A DNA stretch of 47,598 nt from Brevundimonas denitrificans (lineage in GTDB: Bacteria > Pseudomonadota > Alphaproteobacteria > Caulobacterales > Caulobacteraceae), in assembly GCF_030160755.1 (NCBI RefSeq), contig NZ_BSOY01000013.1, positions 1-47,598 on the forward strand. The letters are read 5' to 3'. The notes below the pieces were generated by a model, which saw nothing but the letters and a program-made list of their open reading frames with translations, did not search any database and was not told where the DNA came from. Shown here piece by piece: positions 1 through 12,126 of this stretch. The number at the start of each line of letters is the position of its first letter. Position 1 is the stretch's first letter. A program made the translations under genes and the position numbers.

Positions 1-1199
1 CGACCGCCGCCGGCCACGGCGACCTTCACGCCGTGCGTCGCGAGCAGGTTCTCGATGGCCGACCGCGCCGCCTCGACCCGGTCCGGAGCGGCCTCGACCG
101 TGACACCGTGCGGCGTGGCGACCGCGCGCCAGTCGTGTTCCGGGCCGAGGGCGGCGCTGACGGCGGTCTCCACCTCGCGCGGACAGATCACGGCGCCCGG
201 CCAGCGCCAAAGGTCCTCCAGCCGGCCCTCCACCGGATGAACGGCGGTCAGCGGCGAGCCGCAGGAGCAGGGCGCCGGCAGCGGCTGCAGCAGGTCGGGC
301 AGGCGGACCCGGATCATCGGCTGGGTGGTGCGGCGCAGGTCGGTGATGATCGGCAGGAAGCGGTTGGTCCCGGGCACGGGTTCGCGCTCGATGATCAGCA
401 CATCCTCGTTCAGGTGCAGGGTCCCGAGACGGCAGGCGGCGCCGAGGAAGCCCTCGGTGGCCTGATAGATGGGGTCGGGCCGGGCGCCGAGCGCCGCGCC
501 GATCCAGCCCCGCTCGGCCTCGCCCATCGGTTCGGCGCCGTAGAACAGGCGACGCAGCGGCCAGGGTCGGTCCGTGCGTCGGGCGAGGTCCGCCAGAACC
601 TGCGGCGGGGCGATCAGGACGTCGGGGGCGAAGGCCCGCAGCCGCTCGAGCCGTTCGGCGGCCGTACCGTCGAGGCCGACGAACAGGAAGCGGAACGGAC
701 CCGCCTCTCCGATATCGCCGTACAGCCGGTTGTCGGCGCGCAGACACAGGGCGATCCGTGTGGGGCGCAACAGGGCGTCGGCGGGAAGCAGGCGGGCGAG
801 GATATGGCCGATCCAGCCGCCGCGTTCCGCCGCACTGGTCACGAACAGGCCGCGTCGTCCCGAGGAGCCGGTAGAGAAGCCCGCCACGATCCCGGGCTGG
901 ACTTCACCGGATTCGCCGGACTCCGCCGCCAGGGCGGCGGCTTCGGTCTCGGGCCGGGTCAGGCCGAGGGTGTTCCAGGCGTCGAAGCGCTCGCGCAGGG
1001 CATCAGGAGACATGACCGGAAAGTCGGCCAGCGGCCGGCCAGCGAGGGCGCTGATCGCCGGGGTGCGGGCGATGACGGGGGCCATGGTGCGCCAGAGCTG
1101 CGCCTGTCGCCGCGCGACATCGGCGGGCGAGCGCAGGCTCCAAGCGCTCCAGCGGGCCGCGAGCCAGGCCCGCAGGACCGCGCGCCGGTCAGTCCGCAC
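1..1199 (-). CDS. Adenylate-forming enzyme, F390 synthetase-related / PaaK-like (partial, C-terminus cut by window edge)
   Basis: About 399 residues are visible when the minus strand is read from a GTG at 1199; the C-terminal end lies beyond base 1. The frame shows an AMP-binding P-loop (FSTGSSGRRGLF, about residues 109-120), an A5-like motif YQATEGFLG (about 245-253), the segment ITDLRRTTQPMIRVRLPD and a CSCGSP cysteine pair (about 311-316). These fit the phenylacetate-CoA-ligase-like group of adenylate-forming enzymes often named F390 synthetase-related or CoF synthetase. Such enzymes activate a carboxylate with ATP; the substrate here is unknown. The GTG start overlaps the end of the upstream hydrolase by 11 bases, so it is probably the fourth gene of the operon ketosynthase-reductase-hydrolase-ligase. 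An in-frame ATG lies about 39 codons inside and would cut conserved sequence, so GTG is preferred. Confidence 0.8.
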   Translation of the reverse strand, partial: MRTDRRAVLRAWLAARWSAWSLRSPADVARRQAQLWRTMAPVIARTPAISALAGRPLADFPVMSPDALRERFDAWNTLGLTRPETEAAALAAESGESGEVQPGIVAGFSTGSSGRRGLFVTSAAERGGWIGHILARLLPADALLRPTRIALCLRADNRLYGDIGEAGPFRFLFVGLDGTAAERLERLRAFAPDVLIAPPQVLADLARRTDRPWPLRRLFYGAEPMGEAERGWIGAALGARPDPIYQATEGFLGAACRLGTLHLNEDVLIIEREPVPGTNRFLPIITDLRRTTQPMIRVRLPDLLQPLPAPCSCGSPLTAVHPVEGRLEDLWRWPGAVICPREVETAVSAALGPEHDWRAVATPHGVTVEAAPDRVEAARSAIENLLATHGVKVAVAGGG

Positions 1200-2031
1200 G
1201 GCGCGTCTCGACCTCAACCTCGCCGCAGTGGGAGGGGGTGACGATCACCTCGGGATTGCGCGCCCACAGCCGGTGCAGGGCGTTGAGGGTTTCCCGATAG
1301 GGGCCGGTCTGGCCGAGCAGGGCGGTGGTCAGGCGCGGCGGCGGGACGTCGTCGCGCACGGCGCCGCTGGACCAGGCCGCATCGGCGATCAGGAAGCGGG
1401 TGCGGTCGTCGCTCTGCCGCACGAGAAGGCCCCAGTGGCCGGGGCAGTGTCCGGGCAGCTGGACCGCCAGCAGGGAGCCGTCGCCCAGCAGGTCCGCCCC
1501 GGCTTCAAACGGGGCCATGTCGGGGCCGAGCGCGACCTGCGCCCGGTCCTCGAAGAAGACCGCACGGGCGTCGATGTCGGCAGGAGCGAGCGCCGCCAGC
1601 ACCCCGCGGCGGACACGGGCGACGCGGCCCTTGCGCTGGACCTGAGCCAGCCCGGCGCGGGCGCAGAAGAGGCGGGCCTCCGGGAACCGTGTCAGTCCGG
1701 CGATGTGGTCGCCGTGGAAGTGGGAGACGACGACCGCGCGGATGTCGCCCGGCGTAAAGCCGAAGGCCGGAAGCTGGTCGGCGACGGCCTGTCCCGGCTC
1801 CAGCGTCACGGGCGTGGTCCAGCGGTAGAGACGTTCCGGAAACGGATCGGTGGCGGCGAAGAAGGCGGGGTCGTAGCCGGTGTCGAACAGCATCGGTCCC
1901 TCGTCCGGATGGACGATCAGGGCGGCCAGGGCGGGAAAGACCGCCGGCGCCAGACCGGCGTCGCGGCGGGTCATGACGGCGGGATGCGAACAGGATCCGG
2001 CGCGCAGGATATGGACGCGGCAGCGTTTCAT
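1189..2031 (-). CDS. MBL-fold metallo-hydrolase
   Basis: A 280-residue metallo-beta-lactamase-superfamily hydrolase. The metal-binding signature SHFHGDHIAG (about residues 103-112: His104, His106, Asp108, His109) is intact. Later metal ligands are suggested by the LPGHCPGHWG segment (about 190-199), an Asp in the FLIADAAW segment and the His of TPSHCGE near the C-terminus. The layout resembles N-acyl-homoserine lactonases and glyoxalase II-like thioesterases, so ester, lactone or thioester hydrolysis is likely, but the substrate cannot be read from the sequence. No signal peptide is seen, so it is probably cytoplasmic. Its ATG overlaps the stop of the upstream reductase gene as ATGA (2028-2031), indicating translational coupling. 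It could release or proof-read the product of the neighbouring ketosynthase and ligase (inference). Confidence 0.88.
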   Translation of the reverse strand: MKRCRVHILRAGSCSHPAVMTRRDAGLAPAVFPALAALIVHPDEGPMLFDTGYDPAFFAATDPFPERLYRWTTPVTLEPGQAVADQLPAFGFTPGDIRAVVVSHFHGDHIAGLTRFPEARLFCARAGLAQVQRKGRVARVRRGVLAALAPADIDARAVFFEDRAQVALGPDMAPFEAGADLLGDGSLLAVQLPGHCPGHWGLLVRQSDDRTRFLIADAAWSSGAVRDDVPPPRLTTALLGQTGPYRETLNALHRLWARNPEVIVTPSHCGEVEVETRRAD

Positions 2032-3017
2032 GACGCCGCCAGCCGGGGCGCGACCGCCAGCGCCGTAGCGACCGCGTCATGGGCCGGTTCATAGCCGAGC
2101 AGACGGCGGGCCTTGCCCAGATCGAACGTCTGCGACCAGGCCAGGGTGGACAGGGTGTAGGGCGTCAGCACCGGCTCAGGCTGTCCCGGCAGGACGCGGC
2201 ACAGGGCGTCGGCGCCGACCGACAGGACCTGTCCGAGGGCGAGGGGTATGGAGACGGTGCGGACCTCGATGTCGAGCGCCTGTCCCAGTCTGCTGATCAG
2301 ATCGCGTACGGGCAGGGCCTGCCCCCCGGTGATGTTGATCGCCTGCCCGCCCGCCGCCTCGCGGTGAACGTCGCCCAGCCGGATCGCGCGCGCCGCGTCA
2401 CGCACATCGGTCATCTCCACCAGCGCCCGCCCGTCGCGGAACACCGGGAACCGACCGCGCTTCACCAGCCGCAGGATGCGCGGCAGCAGGACGGCGTCGT
2501 CGGGGCCGATGATGGCGCGCGGGCGGATGGCGACGGTGCGGAAGCCGGGCGCGTCAGCGGCGAGCACGAGACGCTCGGCCTCGCCCTTGGTGCGGGAATA
2601 GGCGTTCAGGGGACGCTCCGGCCAGGGCGTGTCTTCCGTCAATCCGGTCTGGTCGGCCCAGCGGGCGTAGACCGAGGGGGAGGAGACGAAGACGAACGAC
2701 CCCACGCCCGACCGACGCGCGGCGGCGAGCAGGTCGCGGGTCAGATCGACATTGGCGCGCTGGAAGTGGGCGTCGGGACCCCAGGGGCTGGACAGGGCTG
2801 CGGCGTGGAAGACGACGTCGATGTCCCCGCACAGGGTGTCGGGACCCAGGTCGAACAGGTCGCCCGCCACGGTCTCGGCCCCCATCGCGCCCAGCCGGGC
2901 GATGGCCGCCGGGCTGCGCCCGGCGGCGCGGACCGTGTAGCCCTCATCCAGCAAGGCCTGCGTCAGGGTCAGGCCGAGGCCCCCGGTCGCGCCGGTGACC
3001 AGCGCGCGGCGGCTCAC
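2028..3017 (-). CDS. NAD(P)-dependent epimerase/dehydratase (extended SDR), OleD-like
   Basis: A 329-residue extended short-chain dehydrogenase/reductase. It has the nucleotide-binding motif TGATGGLG at residues 8-15, the VFHAAA segment (about 69-74), a catalytic Ser region (FVFVSSPSVYA) and the active-site YSRTK (Tyr140, Lys144). The pattern of conserved stretches recalls 3-beta-hydroxysteroid dehydrogenase-like reductases such as OleD, which reduces 2-alkyl-3-ketoacids in bacterial olefin synthesis. That similarity is from memory of the family, not from a search. The GTG start at 3017 is chosen because it overlaps the stop of the ketosynthase gene as GTGA and puts the Rossmann motif at the normal distance. 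The open frame extends further upstream, but that part lies over the ketosynthase gene and is not coding. It is likely to reduce the beta-keto product of the preceding enzyme (inference). Confidence 0.88.
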   Translation of the reverse strand: MSRRALVTGATGGLGLTLTQALLDEGYTVRAAGRSPAAIARLGAMGAETVAGDLFDLGPDTLCGDIDVVFHAAALSSPWGPDAHFQRANVDLTRDLLAAARRSGVGSFVFVSSPSVYARWADQTGLTEDTPWPERPLNAYSRTKGEAERLVLAADAPGFRTVAIRPRAIIGPDDAVLLPRILRLVKRGRFPVFRDGRALVEMTDVRDAARAIRLGDVHREAAGGQAINITGGQALPVRDLISRLGQALDIEVRTVSIPLALGQVLSVGADALCRVLPGQPEPVLTPYTLSTLAWSQTFDLGKARRLLGYEPAHDAVATALAVAPRLAAS

Positions 3018-4009
3018 GTCCGCAGCACCATGGCGGCCAGGCTGATCCCCGCCGCCGTGCCCAGAAGCAGGACGGTCTTGCCGGGACCCAGCCGTCCTGT
3101 CGCCTGCGCCTCGACCAGCACCGTGGGCAGGGAGGCCGCGATCTGATTGCCGCGCGTGGCGAAGATGTCGATCACCCGGTCCGGGTCGCCCCCCATGAGC
3201 CGGCGGGCGTGTTCGATCGCGGGCCGGCTGGCCTGGTGGCCGACGATGACATCGACGCTCTCGCGGGTCAGGCCCGCCTCGCCCAGAACCCGAGCGATCA
3301 GGGCGGGCAGGGTTCTCGAAGCGGCCTTGAAGATGCCGAACGGATCCATCCGGAAGCGGGCGCCGTCGGAAAAGGCCTCCAGTCCGTCGTCCAGGCGAAC
3401 GCGGGTTCCGCCGGAGCGCACCGAGGCGAGGTCCTTGCCCGAACCATAGGTTTCGAAGCGGCGGGCCAGCAGGCCCGGGCCGTGGGGATCGTCGCCGGCC
3501 TCGACGCACACGGCCGCCGCGCCGTCGCCGAAGATGGCGGCGGAGGCTGGGGTTTCCCAGTCCAGTCCGCATGACGGTATGTCGCTGGAGACGATCAGGG
3601 CGCGGCGGAACCGGCCTGTGGCGAAGCCCATGGCGGCGACGTCGAGCGCGGTCACGAACGACAGGCACGTCTGGTTGACGTCAAAGGCCCAGACGCCGGA
3701 CTGGCCGAGACCCAGCGCCTCCTGAATCAGCACCGAGGCGCCGGGGATGGGCTGTTCCATCACCCCGCAGGCGCCGATCAGGACGTCGATGTCGCCCGCC
3801 TCCCAGCGTGCCATCGCCAGGGCGCGCCTTGCGGCCTCGGCCCCCATCATCGAGGTGGTTTCGTCCGGGGCCGCGACGCCGCGGGACGCAATGCCGAACT
3901 GGGTCTCGGTCCAGCCCGAGGGCTGGCCGAAGACGGCGTCCAGCGCCTGCGACGACCGGTGTTCACGCGGGGAATACGCCCCAAGGCCAGCCAGGATCAT
4001 GGGCGTCAT
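3014..4009 (-). CDS. 3-oxoacyl-ACP synthase III (KAS III / thiolase-fold) family protein
   Basis: A 331-residue thiolase-fold condensing enzyme with the Cys-His-Asn triad of the FabH/OleA group: Cys115 in FDVNQTCLSF, His258 in VIVGHQASRP and Asn288 in RGNQIAASLP. The GDGAAAV segment (about 161-167) is also typical. It would condense an acyl thioester with malonyl-ACP or with a second acyl chain. FabH itself usually sits with plsX in fatty-acid loci, whereas this copy leads a cluster with an SDR reductase, an MBL hydrolase and an adenylating ligase, so a dedicated secondary pathway is more likely (inference). The ATG at 4009 is used; another ATG three codons in is possible. The Nudix gene ends 48 bases upstream on the same strand. 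Confidence 0.88.
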   Translation of the reverse strand: MTPMILAGLGAYSPREHRSSQALDAVFGQPSGWTETQFGIASRGVAAPDETTSMMGAEAARRALAMARWEAGDIDVLIGACGVMEQPIPGASVLIQEALGLGQSGVWAFDVNQTCLSFVTALDVAAMGFATGRFRRALIVSSDIPSCGLDWETPASAAIFGDGAAAVCVEAGDDPHGPGLLARRFETYGSGKDLASVRSGGTRVRLDDGLEAFSDGARFRMDPFGIFKAASRTLPALIARVLGEAGLTRESVDVIVGHQASRPAIEHARRLMGGDPDRVIDIFATRGNQIAASLPTVLVEAQATGRLGPGKTVLLLGTAAGISLAAMVLRT

Positions 4010-4057
4010 GGCGTCAGGTTAGCCTTGCCGTCGGGCGTCGTCCATGCGCCCGCGGGC

Positions 4058-4765
4058 TCAGTCCTGGTGCTCGATCACATGCCGTCCGCGCACCATGCGG
4101 ACATAGGGCAGGGGCCGGTTCGGATGCGCGAGGCGCTCGCCCACCTCCCCCAGCACGAAGCGGGTGATGGCAGGCAGGTCCAGCGATCTCGTGTCGGCCA
4201 GCGGCAGCCAGGCGATCTCGTCGAGTTCGCCTGAGCCGGCGGTCGGCTCCGGGTGCAGCAGGGCGCGGGCGTCGGCCATGAAGAAGCGGGCGTCGAACCG
4301 GCGGGTCCGTCCCGGCGGCGTGATGGCGCGGGCGACATAGGACAGGGCGGCCAGATCGGGCAGGGCCCCGACAGCCCGGAATTCGCGCCACGAACCGGCG
4401 ACCGAGGCCGCGGGCGCGGGCGCGGCGAGCAGCAGCCCGGTCTCCTCGAAGGTCTCGCGCACGGCGGCGAGGGCAAGGGCGCGGGCGCGGCGGGCGGGAA
4501 CCTCGCGCATCAGGCGGGCTGTGTCCGGCGCGGGCAGATCGTTGGCGGCGGCGGCGCTGAAGTCCGAGCGATCGATCCGTCCTCCGGGGAAGACCCATTT
4601 GGCGGCCATGAAGACGTGGCCGGGGGCACGACGACCCATCAGCACCTGGGCCTCGCCGCCGCGGACGCGGGTCAGGATCAGGGTGGCCGCGTCCTTCGGG
4701 GTCTGACGGCCGCCGACGCGGGGCGCGTCGGTCAGGTTGCGGGCGGAGTCGAAAGGCGTGATCAT
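4058..4765 (-). CDS. Nudix hydrolase with enlarged Nudix box (NUDT19-like)
   Basis: A 235-residue Nudix-fold protein. The second half of the Nudix box is clear (AAVRETFEETGLLL, about residues 100-113), while the opening KWVFPGGRIDR lies about 40 residues earlier. The box therefore carries an insertion, as described for mammalian NUDT19/RP2p-type coenzyme A diphosphatases. The expected reaction is Mg-dependent cleavage of a nucleoside diphosphate linked to another moiety; CoA derivatives are possible but not shown. No signal peptide is visible. It lies between the DUF4424 gene and the ketosynthase on the same strand. A Nudix gene downstream of rnr is, as far as I recall, common in alphaproteobacteria, so it may belong with rnr rather than with the acyl cluster. 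Confidence 0.87.
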   Translation of the reverse strand: MITPFDSARNLTDAPRVGGRQTPKDAATLILTRVRGGEAQVLMGRRAPGHVFMAAKWVFPGGRIDRSDFSAAAANDLPAPDTARLMREVPARRARALALAAVRETFEETGLLLAAPAPAASVAGSWREFRAVGALPDLAALSYVARAITPPGRTRRFDARFFMADARALLHPEPTAGSGELDEIAWLPLADTRSLDLPAITRFVLGEVGERLAHPNRPLPYVRMVRGRHVIEHQD

Positions 4766-4814
4766 GGCCCGGCCATAGCATGCTCGCCGGCTCGCGGACG
4801 ACCCGGCCGGGAGA

Positions 4815-5807
4815 TCAGTCGTCGAAGCGAATTCCGGTCAAGATCAACACGGACAGGTCCTGTGTCGGGGTGTAGTTGCGCCGCCTGATCTCGAACCGGG
4901 TCGGGCCGATCTTGCGCACGCCCTCGCCGCAGAAGCTGACCAGGTTGCGCGAGGAGCCCTTGTCCACGACCAGGCGGAATTCCCCGATCGGCTCGGCCCA
5001 GTTGGCGCCGGTGGTAAGGATGTAGTCGACCCAGGTCTCGGTAAGATACAGGCCGCGCGCGCGCATCCTGCGCGCGCCGGCCCGGAAGGCGTCGTCCGTG
5101 CAATACCGGGTCGCTGCCTGACTGGCGTATTCGCCGGCCTCCATGGCCGGGTCGCCGAACACGCTCCCGGCCGAACCGCCAACGGCCGGCGTGTACTGGT
5201 GACGCACATCGAGTTCGCGCCCGGCGGGGAAGACCTGGGTCCAGTAGTGGGTGGTCTTCAGCGTCCAGAGGGGGACAAGGTCAAGCTGGCGGACGCCGGC
5301 GTCGGTCCAGGACCGGTCCTCGATCAGCCCCATCTCGATCAGCATTTCGATCTGGGGTCGGGGCAGGGCGGCCAGCGCCTGCATCGTCGCCTCGCCCCGG
5401 GGCGTGAACGGGACGGCGAGGCCGCGAAGCAGTCCGGAGTGGTCGACCCCGTTGAAAATCGCCTTCTGCTCGACATTGGTCGCCACGCGGCGGCCGTTCA
5501 CCGTCGTGGTGAAGGGCATCTGCAGGGGATCCTCAAGCGGCACCGCCTCGTCGCCACCCTGCAGGTCGGGCATGGGGAAGGCGACGATCGTCGAGATGTC
5601 GCGCTGTGTGCGATTGTAGAAGCGGTAGCGGACGCGGATCTCGGCGGCCGAGACATAGAGATCCTCGGACCGCATCTCGATGCCGTCGGTGCGTTGCAGA
5701 ACGAGGCCGCCGGCGCCCATGGAGGCGACGCTGTCATTGGCCGCCGCCGGCGCGGCGAGCAGGATGGCGGCCAGCACGGCGGCGACGCCCCGGTTCAATC
5801 TGATCAT
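4815..5807 (-). CDS. DUF4424 family exported protein
   Basis: A 330-residue protein with a clear signal peptide (MIRLNRGVAAVLAAILLAAP, cleavage near AAA-ND at residues 22-24). The mature part begins NDSVASMGAGGLVL and continues with SEDLYVSAAEIRVRYRFYN and VAFPMPDL, which is the pattern of the DUF4424 family found widely in alphaproteobacteria. A Trp/Tyr-rich beta-sandwich-like sequence and a few cysteines suggest a periplasmic protein. The function of the family is unknown. It lies 61 bases downstream of rnr and 50 bases upstream of the Nudix gene, all on the same strand, so it may be co-transcribed with them. Confidence 0.82.
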   Translation of the reverse strand: MIRLNRGVAAVLAAILLAAPAAANDSVASMGAGGLVLQRTDGIEMRSEDLYVSAAEIRVRYRFYNRTQRDISTIVAFPMPDLQGGDEAVPLEDPLQMPFTTTVNGRRVATNVEQKAIFNGVDHSGLLRGLAVPFTPRGEATMQALAALPRPQIEMLIEMGLIEDRSWTDAGVRQLDLVPLWTLKTTHYWTQVFPAGRELDVRHQYTPAVGGSAGSVFGDPAMEAGEYASQAATRYCTDDAFRAGARRMRARGLYLTETWVDYILTTGANWAEPIGEFRLVVDKGSSRNLVSFCGEGVRKIGPTRFEIRRRNYTPTQDLSVLILTGIRFDD

Positions 5808-5868
5808 CTCGTCCTCCCGCGACGAGACTAGCCGATCGGATGCGGCGAAGTCGTGACGATTTCCGCCG

Positions 5869-8168
5869 TCAGCGCCGCTTGCCCTTGCGGACGCCCTTCA
5901 GCCCGCCGGACGGCTTGGGGCCGCCGGGCCGGCCCGCGCCGCGCTTGGGGAAGCCGCCGCCGCCGGGGCCGCGGGCGCGCTGGCCCAGCCGGGGCGCGGG
6001 GGCGTTGGGATCGCGCGGGGCCGGGTCGGACAACATCTCAAAGACCAGACCGCCGGTGATCGGCGTGGCCTCCTTCAGCCGGACCTCGACCGTCCGGCCG
6101 AGGGTCCAGCGGGCGCCGCTGCGTTCGCCGACGAGGGCGTGGGACTTGTCGTCGTGGGTGAAATATTCGGTCCCGAGGGTGGAGACGGGGACCAGGCCGT
6201 CAGCGCCGGTCTCATCCAGGCGCACGAACAGGCCGAAGCGGGTCACGCCGGTGATGCGGCCGGGGAAGGTCGCCCCGACCCGCTCCTGCAGGAAGGCGGC
6301 CATGTAGCGGTCCATGGCGGCGCGTTCGGCCGCCATGGAGCGACGCTCGGTCATGGTCACCTGTTCGGCGATGGCGGGCAGTTCACTGATCTCGCGCTCG
6401 CTCAGCCCGTCCTTGCCCAGGCCCAGCGCCCGGATCAGGCCGCGGTGGACGATCAGGTCGGAATAGCGCCGGATCGGCGAGGTGAAGTGGGCGTAGCGGT
6501 CGAGGTTGAGGCCGAAATGGCCGACGTTCTCGGCCGAATAGATGGCCTGCATCTGGCTGCGCAGGACGACCTCGTTGACGACCTCGGCGTGGTCGCCGCC
6601 GCGAGTCTCGTCCAGCAGTTTGTTGAATCGTTTGGTGGTCGCCGGCTCGCCCTTGGTCCAGGGCTTGCCGATGGTCTGGAGGAAGTCGCCGAGGTTGAAC
6701 AGCTTCTCCTGACTCGGCGCGTCGTGGACGCGGTACAGCAGGGGCGTCTTCTTCTGCTCCAGGGTCTCGGCGGCGCAGACATTGGCCTGGATCATCATCT
6801 CCTCGATCAGCCGGTGGGCCTCGAGGCTGACGCGGGGCTCGATCGAGATGATCTGGCCCTGGTCGTTCATGCGGATGCGGCGTTCGGGGCTTTCGATGGC
6901 CAGGGGGCTGCGCTTCAGCCGGCCCTTGAGCATGGTCCGGTAGGCGGCCCAAAGAGGTTCGAGGATGGCGGCCATGATCGGGCCGGTCGCATCGTCGGTC
7001 TGGCCGTCGATCGCCGCCTGGGCCTGCTCGTAGCTGAGCTTGGCCTGGGACCGCATCAGGCCGCGCATGAATTTGTGGCCCGTCTTCCGGCCGTCCTTGT
7101 CGAAGACCATGCGCACGGCCATGCAGGCGCGGTTCTCGCCTTCCTTGAGGCTGCACAGGCCGTTGGACAGCCGCTCGGGCAGCATCGGCTCGACGCGGTC
7201 GGGGAAGTAGGTGGAGTTGCCCTTGTCGCGGGCCTCACGGTCGAGGTTCGTATTGGGGCGGACGTAGGCAGCGACGTCGGCGATGGCGACCCAGACGATC
7301 CAGCCGTCGGCGTTCTTCGGGTCCTCGTCGCGCATCGCATAGACGGCGTCGTCGTGGTCGCGGGCGTCGGCGGGATCGATGGTGATCAGCGGCAGGTCGC
7401 GAAGGTCCTCGCGGCCCTTCAGCGAAGGCAGCTCCTGGTCCTCGGCCTCCTTCTCGACGGCCTCGGAGAAGCCCATCGGCACATTGTGGGCGGCGATGGC
7501 GATCAGGGAGGCGGCGCGGGCGTCGCCCTCGTGGCCGATCTTTTCCAGAATCTTGCCGCGCTTGGGGCCGTAGCGCTGGTCGCCCTTTTCGATGGCCGCG
7601 AGAACGAGGTCGCCGTCGCGCAGGCCCTCGGCCTGGGCGTGGGGGACCAGGAGCACGTCCTTGGAGCGCCGATCGACGGGCTCGACCCGGACCTCCTTGT
7701 GGGACTTGCGGATGACGCCCAGCACCTTGTTGGCGCCGGCGTCGAGGGTCTTGATCAGCCGGGCTTCCCAGCCGTCCTCGGTCCGCGTGAACTTGACGAG
7801 GACGCGGTCGCCCATGCCGGGGGCGGGGCCGGGCTTGTCGTTGTCGGGGACCAGCAGGGCGCGGGGGGCGTCGGTCGAGGCCTCGACCAGACGGACGTAG
7901 AGTTCGCCGTCCATGTCGCGCTCGACCACGTCGGCGACGCCGACGGCGGGCAGGGCGCCGACCTCGGAGAAGCCCTTGCGGCCGCGTTTGCCCAGCTTGC
8001 CGGCCTCTTCAAGGGCGCGGATCATTTCGCGCAGGGCGCGGCGTTCGCCGCCCTTGAGGCCGAAGTGGCGGGCGATGTCGGTTTTCTCGGCCGATCCGGC
8101 TTCGCGGAGGAAGGCGATCAGCGTGTTTTCGTCGGGGAGTCCGGCGACGGGCCGGCGGGGTGATTTGC

Positions 8169-8172
<4 letters not shown>
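5869..8172 (-). CDS. rnr: Ribonuclease R
   Basis: A 767-residue 3'-to-5' exoribonuclease of the RNB/RNase II superfamily. In order it shows an N-terminal winged-helix-like segment (about 10-70), cold-shock/OB domains (about 75-230), the RNB catalytic domain with ITIDPADARDHDDA (263-276; Asp267, Asp272, Asp274 and Asp275 hold the metals), the HFTSPIRRYSDLIVHR motif, an S1 domain (about 630-710) and a Gly/Arg/Lys-rich tail typical of RNase R. It degrades structured RNA, including defective rRNA and mRNA with secondary structure, in the cytoplasm. The ATG at 8172 overlaps the stop of the VapC-like toxin gene (ATGA, 8169-8172), an unusual coupling. The length is normal for the family. Confidence 0.97.
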
Positions 8173-8959
<787 letters not shown>

Positions 8960-8996
8960 CTAGCTTCCAGCGCGAACGTACCCCCGGAGTTTCTGC

Positions 8997-10400
8997 ATGT
9001 CCCTTTCCGCCGCCCCCGTCCTGTCCGGTCCGACCGGCTCCCTGCTGGACCTGATCGGCAAGACGCCGATGGTGGAGGTGACGAAGATCGATACCGGCCC
9101 GTGCCGCCTGTTCCTGAAGCTGGAGGCGCAGAATCCGGGCGGATCGATCAAGGACCGCATCGCCCTGTCGATGATCGCAGCGGCCGAGGCGGAGGGGTTT
9201 CTGAAGCCCGGCGGGACCATCGTCGAGGCGACGGCCGGCAATACGGGTCTGGCGCTGACCCTGGTGGGGCAGGCCAAGGGCTATAAGGTGCTTCTGGTCA
9301 TCCCCGACAAGATGTCCAAGGAAAAAATCCAGCATCTCAGGGCGATGGGCGCCGATGTTCGCCTGACGCGTTCGGACGTGCCGCATGGGCATCCGGAATA
9401 TTACACCGACATGGCCGAGCGGCTGGCGCAGCAGATCCCGGGCGGCTTCTACGTCAACCAGTTCGCCAACGACGCCAACTCCCTCGCCCACTTCAAGACG
9501 ACGGGGCCGGAGATCTGGGAACAGATGGACGGCGACATCGACGCCTTCGTCGCCGGCATCGGCTCGGGCGGCACCATCACCGGCATCGCCCGCTATCTGA
9601 AGAGCGTCGGTTCGGACGCGAAGATCATCCTCGCCGATCCCGTGGGGTCCACGCTGGCCGGAATCGTCAACGACGGCGTGCCGGGACCGGAGGGCAGCTA
9701 CACCGTCGAAGGCATCGGCCAGAATTTCGTGCCCGACACCGCGGACATGAGCCTGATCGACAAGGCCTATTCCATCCCCGACGCCGAGGCGATCGCCACC
9801 GTCCGGGAGCTGCTGCTGAAGGAGGGCGTGCTGGCCGGCTCGTCGTCGGGAACGCTGATCGCCAGCGCCCTGCGCTGGTGCCGCGAGCAGACGGAGCCGA
9901 AGCGGGTCGTGACCTTCGTCTGCGACACCGGCGCCAAATATCTGTCCAAGGTCTATAACGACGCCTGGCTGGCCGATCAGGGGCTGGGCGGCCAGCCGCT
10001 GCATGGGGATCTGTCGGACCTGATCAGCCGCAAATACGAGAACGGCGACGTGGTTGTCGCCGGGCCGGAAGACACCCTGGATACGGCGTTCAAGCGCATG
10101 CGCGGCGCCGACGTCTCGCAATTGCCGATCATCCAGGACGGCCGGCTGGTCGGGATTCTGGACGAGAGCGATCTGGTCCATGTCATGAATACGGACGAGA
10201 TCACCCGGCGGGAGCGGTTCGCCCGACCGGTGGCCTCGGCCATGACCCGCGACCTCGATACCGTCCAGGTGGGCGAGAGCCTGGACGCCCTGATCCCCCT
10301 GTTCGACCGCGACCGTGTGGCGATCGTGCTGGATGGCGAGCAATTTGTGGGCCTGATTACGCGGACGGACCTCATCAACCACCTGAGTCTGAACCGGTAA
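8997..10400 (+). CDS. Cystathionine beta-synthase-like PLP enzyme with CBS pair
   Basis: A 467-residue fold-type II PLP enzyme. Lys52 in NPGGSIKDRI is the expected Schiff-base lysine, ATAGNTGLAL (about 79-88) binds the substrate carboxylate, GIGSGGTITG binds the phosphate, and GSSSGT lies near the ring nitrogen. Residues from about 340 to the end form two CBS motifs (DVSQLPIIQDGRLVGIL and RVAIVLDGEQFVGLI). The architecture is that of cystathionine beta-synthase: serine plus homocysteine give cystathionine. A cysteine synthase activity cannot be excluded. With the gamma-lyase/synthase-like gene at 13658 it could form a transsulfuration route. A ribosome-binding site CGGAG precedes the ATG. The gene is divergent from the toxin-antitoxin pair. 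Confidence 0.92.
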   Translation: MSLSAAPVLSGPTGSLLDLIGKTPMVEVTKIDTGPCRLFLKLEAQNPGGSIKDRIALSMIAAAEAEGFLKPGGTIVEATAGNTGLALTLVGQAKGYKVLLVIPDKMSKEKIQHLRAMGADVRLTRSDVPHGHPEYYTDMAERLAQQIPGGFYVNQFANDANSLAHFKTTGPEIWEQMDGDIDAFVAGIGSGGTITGIARYLKSVGSDAKIILADPVGSTLAGIVNDGVPGPEGSYTVEGIGQNFVPDTADMSLIDKAYSIPDAEAIATVRELLLKEGVLAGSSSGTLIASALRWCREQTEPKRVVTFVCDTGAKYLSKVYNDAWLADQGLGGQPLHGDLSDLISRKYENGDVVVAGPEDTLDTAFKRMRGADVSQLPIIQDGRLVGILDESDLVHVMNTDEITRRERFARPVASAMTRDLDTVQVGESLDALIPLFDRDRVAIVLDGEQFVGLITRTDLINHLSLNR

Positions 10401-10532
10401 GGCGACCTGGCCTGAACCCGCCGGCGGATTGTGGCTAACCTGCGGTGGAAATGAGGCGATCGGACTGGACGGCGGCCCAATTGTGGTCCTGACTGGGCCC
10501 CGTCCCGTTCATTCGCTGCTGGGCCTGATCCA

Positions 10533-11333
10533 ATGACACGCCTTTCGAACCTCGCTCTCGCCGCCGCCTTTGCCGCCGCCTCGCTGTTCTGCGCCGGGCA
10601 AGTCTCCGCGCAGGCGGCCGCCCCGGCGGGTTGTTCCGACGATGTGCCGCAGCGGGCCACGCGCGGGAACACGGAGTTCATCAGCAATTCCCAGAGGGTC
10701 CGCGGCCTGATCTACAAGCCGACCGGTCCCGCCAACGGCGCGGCGGTGGTCCTGCTGCACAGCTCCGAAGGCCTGTCCGTCGACGCCCATTCGTTTGATC
10801 CGCACGCCATCCAGCTGGCGGCGCGCGGCTATCACGTCCTGGTGCCGAACTATTTCGAGGCCCGGGCGCGCCAGGTTCCCTGGAACGGCCGTGATATCCG
10901 CCTGTGGGAAGAGGCGGGCCATGACGCCGTCGCCTATATGGGCACGCTGGAGGGCGTCGATCCGGCCCGCGTCGGCATCTGGGGCTTCTCGCTGGGCGGC
11001 TTCGTCGCCACGGACGGGTCGGCCCATCCCGACTCGACCGCTCGCGTGGCTATCGGCGTCGCCACCGGCAAGGACATCTTCGAGCCCAGCCGGACCCGCC
11101 GGGAGGTGCCGATGTTGCTGATCGAGGGTTATTCGACCTTCCCGATCATCTCGTCCGCCACGATGCGCGATCTGGCCGCTGACCTTCGCCGCCGCGGGGC
11201 GACCGTCGAAGTCCAGATGCTGGCGTCCCGCGACCCCTCGATGACCGGCGCTGTCTGGTGCGAGGTGTTCCAGCACACGCGGCGTTTCCTCGACGCCAAC
11301 CTCCTGCCGGCCGCCGCCGCTCCCGCCGGGTAA
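10533..11333 (+). CDS. Dienelactone-hydrolase-like exported protein with degraded catalytic triad
   Basis: A 266-residue alpha/beta-hydrolase-fold protein with an N-terminal signal peptide (hydrophobic to about residue 26, AQAAA). The nucleophile elbow GFSLGG is present. Compared with the next two genes, however, the triad acid is lost (second gene LLIHARRDPV, here LLIEGYSTFP) and the His of the DGHGFDRPTWC block is replaced (here DPSMTGAVWC). Only the serine of the Ser-Asp-His set remains, so it is probably not a normal hydrolase. It is the first of four adjacent related genes, ends 7 bases before the next, and follows the cystathionine beta-synthase-like gene by 132 bases. The shared GC-DDV and DPHAIQLA-RGYHVLVPNY blocks show a duplication origin. 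Confidence 0.85.
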   Translation: MTRLSNLALAAAFAAASLFCAGQVSAQAAAPAGCSDDVPQRATRGNTEFISNSQRVRGLIYKPTGPANGAAVVLLHSSEGLSVDAHSFDPHAIQLAARGYHVLVPNYFEARARQVPWNGRDIRLWEEAGHDAVAYMGTLEGVDPARVGIWGFSLGGFVATDGSAHPDSTARVAIGVATGKDIFEPSRTRREVPMLLIEGYSTFPIISSATMRDLAADLRRRGATVEVQMLASRDPSMTGAVWCEVFQHTRRFLDANLLPAAAAPAG

Positions 11334-11340
11334 CGCGCCG

Positions 11341-12126
11341 GTGCGCCTTATTGCGCTGATTGGCCTGCTGGCGGCGACCATGGGTGGACCCATCGCCCAG
11401 GCCCAGACGGCGCCGGATCAGCCGCAGGTCGGACGTCCCGGCTGCACCGACGATGTGGCGGTCAGGGCGTCGCGGACACTCGTCTCGTTCGAAAGCCGGG
11501 GTCGCCCGGTACAGGCGCACCTCTATACGCCCGGCGGCGAGCCGAACGGTTCGGGGGTGGTCCTGCTGCACGGCGCGCGGGGGCTGTCCGCCGACGCAGC
11601 GACTTTTGATCCGCACGCCATCCAGCTGGCGTCGCGCGGTTATCACGTGCTCGTTCCGAACTACTATGACGCGGAGCCGGGCCGGGCGCGTCGAACCGGC
11701 CGGGATATGCGCCTCTGGCGAGGGGTGGCGGCGGACGGGGCGTCCTTCCTGGGCGGGCGCCCGGGCATGGACCCCGAACGGGTGGCGCTGTGGGGATATT
11801 CGCTGGGCGGCTTCCTGGCCGGGGAGACCGCGATGGAGTCGGACGTCGCGGCGGCGGCGGTTTCAGTGGCCGGCGGGCTGGACGTCGGCGAAGCCGGCCG
11901 CGGCGGGCGATCGGTCCCCCTGCTGCTGATACACGCCCGCCGGGATCCCGTGATCTCGCCGATGTCTACACGCCGATGGGGCGACGGCCTGCAGCGCCGG
12001 GGCGGCCGGGTTGAGGTTCAGGCGCTGGACTGGGATGGACATGGCTTTGACCGCCCGACCTGGTGTGCGATTTTCGGGCGGACGCGGGCGTTTCTGGACC
12101 GCGCGCTGAGCGAGCGAGACGCCTGA
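11341..12126 (+). CDS. Dienelactone hydrolase family exported protein (second copy)
   Basis: A 261-residue paralogue of the preceding gene, starting at a GTG 7 bases after its stop. An N-terminal signal peptide is followed by PGCTDDVAVRASR. The predicted triad is complete: Ser in GYSLGG, Asp in HARRDPVIS and His in DWDGHGFDRPTWC. Dienelactone-hydrolase-like proteins hydrolyse esters, lactones or related small substrates; the true substrate is unknown. The export signal places it in the periplasm, unlike classic dienelactone hydrolase. It forms a tight cluster with its neighbours and is probably co-transcribed. Confidence 0.87.
   Translation: MRLIALIGLLAATMGGPIAQAQTAPDQPQVGRPGCTDDVAVRASRTLVSFESRGRPVQAHLYTPGGEPNGSGVVLLHGARGLSADAATFDPHAIQLASRGYHVLVPNYYDAEPGRARRTGRDMRLWRGVAADGASFLGGRPGMDPERVALWGYSLGGFLAGETAMESDVAAAAVSVAGGLDVGEAGRGGRSVPLLLIHARRDPVISPMSTRRWGDGLQRRGGRVEVQALDWDGHGFDRPTWCAIFGRTRAFLDRALSERDA

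Follow-up and report, generated by a model that had tools for sequence, protein, structure and literature searches.

Four overlapping genes at the beginning of a 47,598-nucleotide contig of Brevundimonas denitrificans (NZ_BSOY01000013.1, analysed whole and hereafter called the window) encode a ketosynthase III (KS), an OleD-like reductase, a hydrolase of the metallo-β-lactamase (MBL) fold and an adenylate-forming ligase of the PaaK fold. These genes travel together through distant bacterial phyla and co-vary, and the reading favored here, with a rough probability of 0.6, is that they form the core of a biosynthetic gene cluster which has spread horizontally and makes a lipid-like small molecule. 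It is nearly certain that the four form one biosynthetic unit, and probable that its product is lipid-like.

Conservation and spread of the gene set

A profile of the ligase was scanned against one genome per species (84,980 species) and yielded at least 592 stretches, at least 587 of them confirmed. The best 80 were taken as loci (numbered with L; genomes and contigs with G and C), a sample therefore biased towards close relatives of the window ligase; many come from metagenome bins, for which the taxon label may be wrong. Fetched by the ligase alone, 78 of the 80 loci hold all four genes, i.e., have tblastn matches at E 1e-8 anywhere in the locus, and they span 11 named phyla: Pseudomonadota (32/34), Bacillota (34/34), Actinomycetota (2/2), Bacteroidota (2/2) and, with 1/1 each, Campylobacterota, Saccharimonadota, Vulcanimicrobiota, Mycoplasmatota, Melainabacteria, Verrucomicrobiota and Chlamydiota, as well as one phylum-less locus. 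Carriers include Escherichia coli, streptococci, Paenibacillus, Acholeplasma, a Saccharibacteria bin and a relative of the chlamydiae, and in the genus itself B. lenta DSM 23960 and B. nasdae JCM 11415 (L056 and L058). An earlier reading of this DNA from its letters (the sequence-only reading) would have fallen had the genes not been conserved together elsewhere; they are, far beyond the genus. The two misses are L108, whose contig begins at the OleD gene and shows no KS match, and L068 (see below). The order KS-OleD-MBL-ligase, in which other genes may intervene, is found in 57/80 loci and OleD-MBL-ligase-KS in 13/80; the other 10 differ or have split or extra matches.

Nearer to the window, 10 of 61 relatives (own genome included) match the KS at E 1e-40. 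Among the nine besides B. denitrificans, five congeners (L022-L026) and L028 carry KS-OleD-MBL-ligase in this order, L027 has its ligase on the other strand, about 3 kb from KS-OleD-MBL, and L029 and L030 have only the KS of the four, which groups with FabH. Similarly, the ligase family TIGR02304 is found in 7/299 genomes of the phylum (own included), and the other six all carry the four genes, with the reductase frame split in L035. In that locus (4982-5970, G109) the OleD-like frame lies in two overlapping pieces, by either a frameshift or an assembly error. Plasmids contribute as well: 54 plasmid records have a ligase match, and of nine examined, seven have KS, reductase, MBL enzyme and ligase annotated in a row (two with an ATP-grasp gene between KS and reductase), L042 spreads the four genes over about 10 kb, and L045, which is unannotated, shows all four by tblastn.

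Within the genus, the MBL gene occurs in 16/121 genomes (E 1e-60), and the NUDIX gene that flanks the set is present in 59/61 congeners. Across 30 loci surrounding this NUDIX gene (own included), the KS adjoins it in three, a GST-like and a NupC-like gene stand there instead in three, i.e., an empty site, and in the remaining 24 neither is seen in the 1.5 kb covered. In one bin the NUDIX gene itself has an in-frame TGA (G029:C291:4699-5226). At the other end of the scale, the tree of the KSs joins members of different phyla, Succinimonas with Gastranaerophilales (100/100) and Eremiobacterota with Rhodospirillaceae (100/100). Together, the empty sites and these cross-phylum neighbors suggest that the four genes come and go as one piece and pass from phylum to phylum. 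When the four proteins are compared in 41 of 76 loci (each genus or unplaced locus represented once), their pairwise distances correlate, with r from 0.45 (MBL-ligase) to 0.83 (KS-OleD), and 0/1000 shuffles reached values as high. The four proteins thus share a history, a pattern also expected from descent along a common species tree. Finally, dN/dS of the four genes is 0.12-0.25 against the congener L024 and 0.18-0.29 against the congener L026, which shows them to be under purifying selection.

The enzyme classes named by the sequence-only reading hold up: they agree with the best NCBIfam matches of all four proteins, each of which stays below the curated cut-off, and with Pfam for KS, reductase and MBL enzyme, the ligase having no Pfam match at E 0.001. 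The catalytic residues that it had described as retained are near invariant for KS, reductase and MBL enzyme in alignments of the window with the loci, which hold 80 (KS), 78 (reductase), 79 (MBL enzyme) and 81 (ligase) sequences because matches of 600 bases or fewer were dropped.

The ketosynthase is neither FabH nor OleA

By sequence, the nearest PDB entries to the KS are CorB (4yuc, 1e-49) and MxnB (4v2p, 3e-48), followed by FabH, and its best NCBIfam match is the KSIII family PRK07204 (321.8 bits, cut-off 402). The condensing triad is kept, with Cys in 80/80 and His and Asn each in 79/80 (one gap each). In a tree of 101 rows (90 cassette KSs, three OleA and five FabH), which leaves out L054 (short KS match) and L108 and in which long branches were flagged (KS3_own_L132, L117 and others), the cassette KSs and CorB/MxnB stand on one side of a branch with support 99/94, whereas OleA (100/100) and FabH (94/98) have branches of their own outside this clade. 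Inside it, the placing of CorB and MxnB near two cassette KSs from Bacteroidota is less well supported (89/89). The B. denitrificans genome has a third KSIII-type gene (G000:C9, L132), which is about 26% identical to the cassette KS of L043 and has a very long branch in this tree.

The column that holds the catalytic Glu of OleA (3/3) and the gate Phe of FabH is occupied by Ile in 69 and Leu in 21 of the 90 cassette KSs and by Val in CorB and MxnB; two residues before it, Gln is found in 89/90. A small gate residue should also let in long chains, as is known from work on FabH. On these grounds an OleA identity of the KS was rejected, Ile or Leu standing at the Glu column in 90/90 and the tree placing the KS outside the OleA branch. 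Housekeeping FabH was rejected likewise: the genome's own FabH, encoded elsewhere, falls in the FabH group, whereas the cassette KS lies outside the five FabH rows. The phylogeny against FabH and OleA that the sequence-only reading had called for thus sets the KS apart from both, and the firm grouping with housekeeping FabH that would have told against that reading did not appear.

That the KS is a second FabH, initiating ordinary fatty-acid synthesis beside unrelated neighbors, is hardly credible. It does share the fold of FabH, which comes next among PDB families after CorB/MxnB, and the available parts of one study place MxnB and CorB within the FabH clade in a tree of 284 KSs (PMC4578411); yet, besides the separate FabH of this genome and the loss of the gate Phe, the same neighbors recur across phyla.

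The affiliation with CorB and MxnB bears on the chemistry to be expected. According to the parts of PMC4578411 available, the catalytic glutamate of X. campestris OleA is Glu117, the E105A variant of PpyS yields no photopyrone, and MxnB and CorB carry Val at the place of the PpyS Glu; their nucleophile carbon sits between two carbonyls and may do without such a base. In line with this, the accessible text of PMC5724707 has MxnB condense two activated chains as β-keto intermediates (thioesters). Since the cassette KS shares with CorB and MxnB the Cys-His-Asn triad, a clade and a small aliphatic residue in place of the PpyS/OleA Glu, it is predicted to join two activated acyl chains, at least one of them a β-keto or malonyl thioester. 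The setting differs: CorB and MxnB finish polyketide synthase/nonribosomal peptide synthetase (PKS/NRPS) products as an α-pyrone (corallopyronin, myxopyronin; PMC4578411 and PMC5724707, as far as available), whereas the cassette KS is accompanied by reductase, MBL enzyme and ligase in 78/80 loci. No PKS or NRPS was found among the recurrent cassette neighbors looked up, in a survey that included no genome-wide PKS search; the exception is an NRPS about 4 kb off in L037.

The reductase and the parallel with olefin biosynthesis

OleD (NF042422) is the best NCBIfam match of the reductase, at 179.6 bits against a cut-off of 580, and the OleD proteins of three ole loci share 37-39% identity with the cassette reductase of L043. 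The Ser/Tyr/Lys of short-chain dehydrogenases/reductases (SDRs) are kept in 78/78 cassette reductases and the three glycines of the Rossmann motif in 75-77.

OleB is an α/β hydrolase. The sequence-only reading had likened the four genes to OleABCD, and in outline the likeness stands, as both comprise a KSIII, an OleD-like reductase, a hydrolase and an adenylating enzyme in one conserved unit. It does not extend to the details, since the OleA Glu is absent, the KS groups with CorB/MxnB, the reductase reaches 180 of 580 bits, the ligase has the PaaK fold and a lactonase-like MBL enzyme takes OleB's place. A true Ole-type pathway, in which an OleA-like head-to-head condensation and a reduction would lead to a β-lactone that is kept or converted to an olefin, with the MBL enzyme acting for OleB and the ligase for OleC, is consequently unlikely, even though the sequence of condensation, reduction, lactone and activation is plausible, the MBL enzyme has a lactonase fold and OleD remains the nearest family of the reductase; the KS outside OleA, a reductase score far below the OleD cut-off and a ligase nearest to PaaK-type enzymes tell against it.

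The MBL-fold enzyme

Among PDB sequences the MBL enzyme is nearest to 4-pyridoxolactonase and N-acyl-homoserine lactone (AHL) lactonases, and its best NCBIfam match is an AttM-type lactonase at 70.3 bits, far from the lactonase cut-off (NF045700, 390 bits). HxHxDH, His195 and Asp217 are found in 79/79 sequences and the last His in 69 (10 gaps); three residues past the metal Asp there is Trp in 78/79 (Tyr in one), at what we take to be the place of Tyr194 in AiiA. Structure models of the MBL enzyme and the ligase, and their alignments, were built from the window and 46 of the 80 loci. The MBL model (pLDDT 96) has AHL lactonases or pyridoxolactonase as its top 20 structural matches (Z 28.5 to 25.1), including GcL (28.5), AiiB (28.4), AiiA (2a7m, 26.5) and pyridoxolactonase (25.9), and matches glyoxalase II GloB, a thioester hydrolase, at Z 16.2. 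Thus, fold and metal ligands are those of AHL lactonases (AiiA, AiiB, GcL, AhlX) and 4-pyridoxolactonase, whereas identity in the structural alignments is only 18-24%, the family score is far below the lactonase cut-offs and Trp replaces the Tyr of AiiA.

This fold could also be read as a sign of breakdown, in a catabolic or quorum-quenching set whose MBL enzyme would open foreign lactones while the ligase served as an acyl-coenzyme A (CoA) ligase and the KS as a thiolase-like enzyme. Such a role is improbable: the MBL enzyme falls short of every listed lactonase cut-off (70 of 390 bits at best), the KS retains its condensing triad, and the Rieske, GNAT, glycosyltransferase and desaturase partners described below suggest synthesis, in neighborhoods that were not searched for β-oxidation genes.

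The ligase

The ligase of the window, cut by the contig end and so short by about 17 residues, scores 208 bits against TIGR02304, its best NCBIfam match (F390-synthetase-related; cut-off 251.9), and other cassette ligases exceed this cut-off, the E. coli member with 755 bits. TIGR02304 is also matched in the control genome Deinobacterium chartae. By sequence, PaaK-type ligases are nearest in the PDB. In agreement, the model (pLDDT 93) matches AMP ligases of the PaaK family, including NatL2, AjiA1, PaaK1 and ClxA, with a Foldseek E of 1.4e-18 to 6six (TM 0.68 by query length), which places it in the PaaK fold. Like these enzymes and the TIGR02304 ligases, it has the conserved motifs: the Gly of the Gly-rich loop, the Tyr and Glu of YxxTEG, two Asp and the two Cys of CxC are kept in 81/81 sequences; the Arg that follows the conserved Asp, in contrast, varies (27/81). 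Some PaaK-type ligases form heterocycles from the acyl adenylate without a separate CoA step, so direct transfer from the ligase to an acceptor is possible. No activity of a TIGR02304 member was found in the literature searched, and the available parts of three papers that name F390 synthetase do so without this gene set (PMC2649909, PMC9823363, PMC5501837).

Partner genes and carrier proteins

The set has more parts than the four genes described in the sequence-only reading: an ATP-grasp gene follows in this genome, and within 9 kb of the ligase the 80 loci have ATP-grasp (58), GNAT (35), Rieske (24) and classical SDR (23) genes, the SDR family mixing more than one kind of SDR. One representative per named neighbor family (two for ATP-grasp) was put to Pfam and NCBIfam, with the result that ATP-grasp of L122 matches PF02655 and PRK06849 (382 of 406 bits), ATP-grasp of L023 stays below both cut-offs, GNAT of L105 matches Acetyltransf_6 (E 4e-6) and the Rieske protein of L064 matches Rieske and VanA_C. 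Among the 22 loci without ATP-grasp, six have one glycosyltransferase family (L078, L103, L106, L113, L117, L125), four more a similar glycosyltransferase open reading frame (ORF) by eye (L074, L094, L118, L123) and three, also by eye, a hydroxylase-like lipid gene as in E. coli (L089, L097, L119). Divergent sulfotransferase and TetR genes are found in two Paracoccus records and one Ketogulonicigenium record. Collectively, these partners would fit a lipid that offers a hydroxyl or carboxyl group for decoration.

A cassette that makes a diffusible signal, similar to that of the Pseudomonas quinolone signal (PQS), was also considered. The PQS set comprises the KSIII enzymes PqsD and PqsBC, the MBL thioesterase PqsE and the ligase PqsA, i.e., the same mix of enzyme classes; occurrence in the genus is patchy, as given above, and the weaker PDB matches of the KS include PqsC and another PQS enzyme. 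A thioesterase reading of the MBL enzyme was set aside: glyoxalase II reached Z 16.2, and PqsE was not among the 50 best-listed structural matches of the MBL model, an absence taken as no evidence. To our knowledge, however, PQS synthesis has no reductase of this kind, the MBL fold is nearest to lactonases, and no regulator was noticed among the recurrent neighbors looked up, though TetR genes adjoin some cassettes. We consider such a signal cassette slightly less likely than the Ole-type pathway.

The acyl carrier protein (ACP) gene whose presence beyond base 1 the sequence-only reading had raised was not seen on C90, the contig that probably continues the window; nor was a Rieske gene, ATP-grasp on this contig being followed by genes that run the other way. 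A phmmer search with AcpP in six-frame ORFs of 104 sources (for the window, bases 1-12000 only) gave two matches, in L076 and L073, each immediately downstream of the KS; divergent carriers escape this search, as did a phosphopantetheine-binding protein that is annotated in L037. In L076 (12190-13757, a Saccharibacteria bin) the ACP-like ORF is followed by biotin-carboxyl-carrier-like and biotin-carboxylase-like ORFs, and in L073 (a Lachnospiraceae bin) by a FabF-like ORF, all judged by eye. In L037 (1-4646, a Paracoccus alcaliphilus plasmid) the annotation places an NRPS, a phosphopantetheine-binding protein and an AMP-binding protein upstream of the cassette, separated from it by further genes.

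Proposed pathway

For a biosynthetic unit of this composition, the following scheme can be drawn, although its exact order of reactions is unlikely to be right in every step. The KS would load a long acyl chain on Cys115 and join to it a second thioester-bound chain by Claisen condensation; this second chain would probably be a β-keto or malonyl thioester, because the KS lacks a glutamate of the OleA type, which could deprotonate a plain acyl chain. The OleD-like enzyme would turn the new β-keto group into an alcohol, and the MBL enzyme would open a lactone (or, less likely, cleave a thioester), freeing a hydroxy acid. The PaaK-type ligase would then adenylate this acid for transfer to CoA or directly to an amine or hydroxyl acceptor. 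Finishing would be lineage-specific, by ATP-grasp with or without Rieske, GNAT or SDR; by a glycosyltransferase; by PAP2, fatty-acid hydroxylase and desaturase; or by a sulfotransferase. Tentatively, and with odds somewhat short of even, the cassette may define a pan-bacterial, undescribed class of lipids in which two acyl chains are joined, β-reduced and taken through a lactone by one shared four-enzyme core, with lineage-specific dressing (amide, sugar, sulfate, hydroxyl). The combination of reductase, GNAT, PAP2, hydroxylase and desaturase also offers a lead towards a sphingolipid-like product.

Several points weigh against the proposed reading. Product, substrates and enzyme activities are only predicted and the order of reactions is guesswork, and the modelled lactonase fold of the MBL enzyme is no proof of a lactone substrate. 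In Asticcacaulis biprosthecium (L068/L177) the KS is directly followed by the ligase, and the OleD-MBL pair, most like that of L028, is elsewhere in the genome; in L027, L079, L117, L126 and L128 the ligase is opposite in direction to the other three genes. The published placement of MxnB and CorB in the FabH clade (PMC4578411, available parts) stands against a tree with only five FabH rows, in which the split from FabH is therefore less broadly tested than that from OleA. Carrier use may vary, given the ACP-like gene beside the KS in 2/104 sources and the NRPS with a carrier about 4 kb off in L037. Likewise, the tailoring genes vary strongly between lineages, so the core may make different products.

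Gene layout and the contig end

The overlap of the four genes reported by the sequence-only reading was confirmed, all on the minus strand (Table 1), by GTGA between KS and reductase, ATGA between reductase and MBL enzyme and 11 bases between MBL enzyme and ligase.

Table 1. The four overlapping genes of the window
Gene product	Coordinates	Strand	Start, stop, length and residues
Ketosynthase III (KS), CorB/MxnB-like clade	3014..4009	-	ATG 4009, TGA 3014, 331 aa; Cys115, His258, Asn288; Ile88 in FabH-Phe/OleA-Glu column
OleD-like NAD(P)-dependent reductase, epimerase family	2028..3017	-	GTG 3017, TGA 2028, 329 aa; Ser112, Tyr140, Lys144
MBL-fold hydrolase, AHL-lactonase fold	1189..2031	-	ATG 2031, TGA 1189, 280 aa; HxHxDH 104-109, His195, Asp217
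PaaK-fold adenylate-forming ligase, F390-synthetase-related, near TIGR02304	1..1199	-	GTG 1199, runs past base 1

The window is the entire contig C13 of a 3.01-Mb genome in 243 contigs, so the ligase is cut by the assembly end and is not a broken gene. The reverse complement of contig C90 (8,222 bases) starts as a ligase tail, ...GRPAQDGVKRRRVRWSDG-stop, which ends VKRRRVRWSDG-stop and supplies the last ~17 residues of the ligase there. The overlapping ATG of the ATP-grasp gene follows, an arrangement that genome G012 has on one contig. From these contig ends and the synteny with G012, C13 and C90 would be adjacent in the genome. Downstream of ATP-grasp, C90 has oppositely directed genes labelled GST-like and NupC-like. 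The labels NupC, GST, VWA and RNR were assigned by eye, without a family search; no gene caller was used, and antisense ORFs that shadow real genes among the neighbor families were excluded by hand.

The cassette in Escherichia coli

In E. coli NRG 857C the cassette lies between narI and rttR/tRNA-Tyr (tyrT)/purU. The E. coli version has seven genes, the core four being followed by PAP2, a fatty-acid hydroxylase and a desaturase (L038/L049). A match is found in 672/5,426 complete E. coli genomes, about one in eight (671 at ≥80% of the query), at 671 chromosomal places and two on records called plasmids; carriers include a Nissle derivative, ATCC 25922, ABU 83972 and JJ1886. In one E. coli record called a plasmid (L038, NZ_CP141085.1, 385 kb) the cassette is surrounded by narGHJI, purU, rssAB, galU, hns and tdk, and as the NRG 857C chromosome (L049) has most of those genes there, this record may be a piece of chromosome.

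Implications

No description of the cassette was found in the full-text literature searched, which mostly leaves subscription papers outside its coverage, and we know of no described product. Each enzyme class is already known, and by analogy the logic of the set resembles Ole and CorB/MxnB chemistry. If the proposed reading is true, an undescribed core common to E. coli, Streptococcus, Paenibacillus and Brevundimonas would mark a gap in what is known of well studied bacteria. The cassette also offers a test case for the role of a CorB/MxnB-type KS outside an assembly line, for that of a lactonase-fold enzyme within a biosynthetic operon and for the substrates of F390-synthetase-related ligases.

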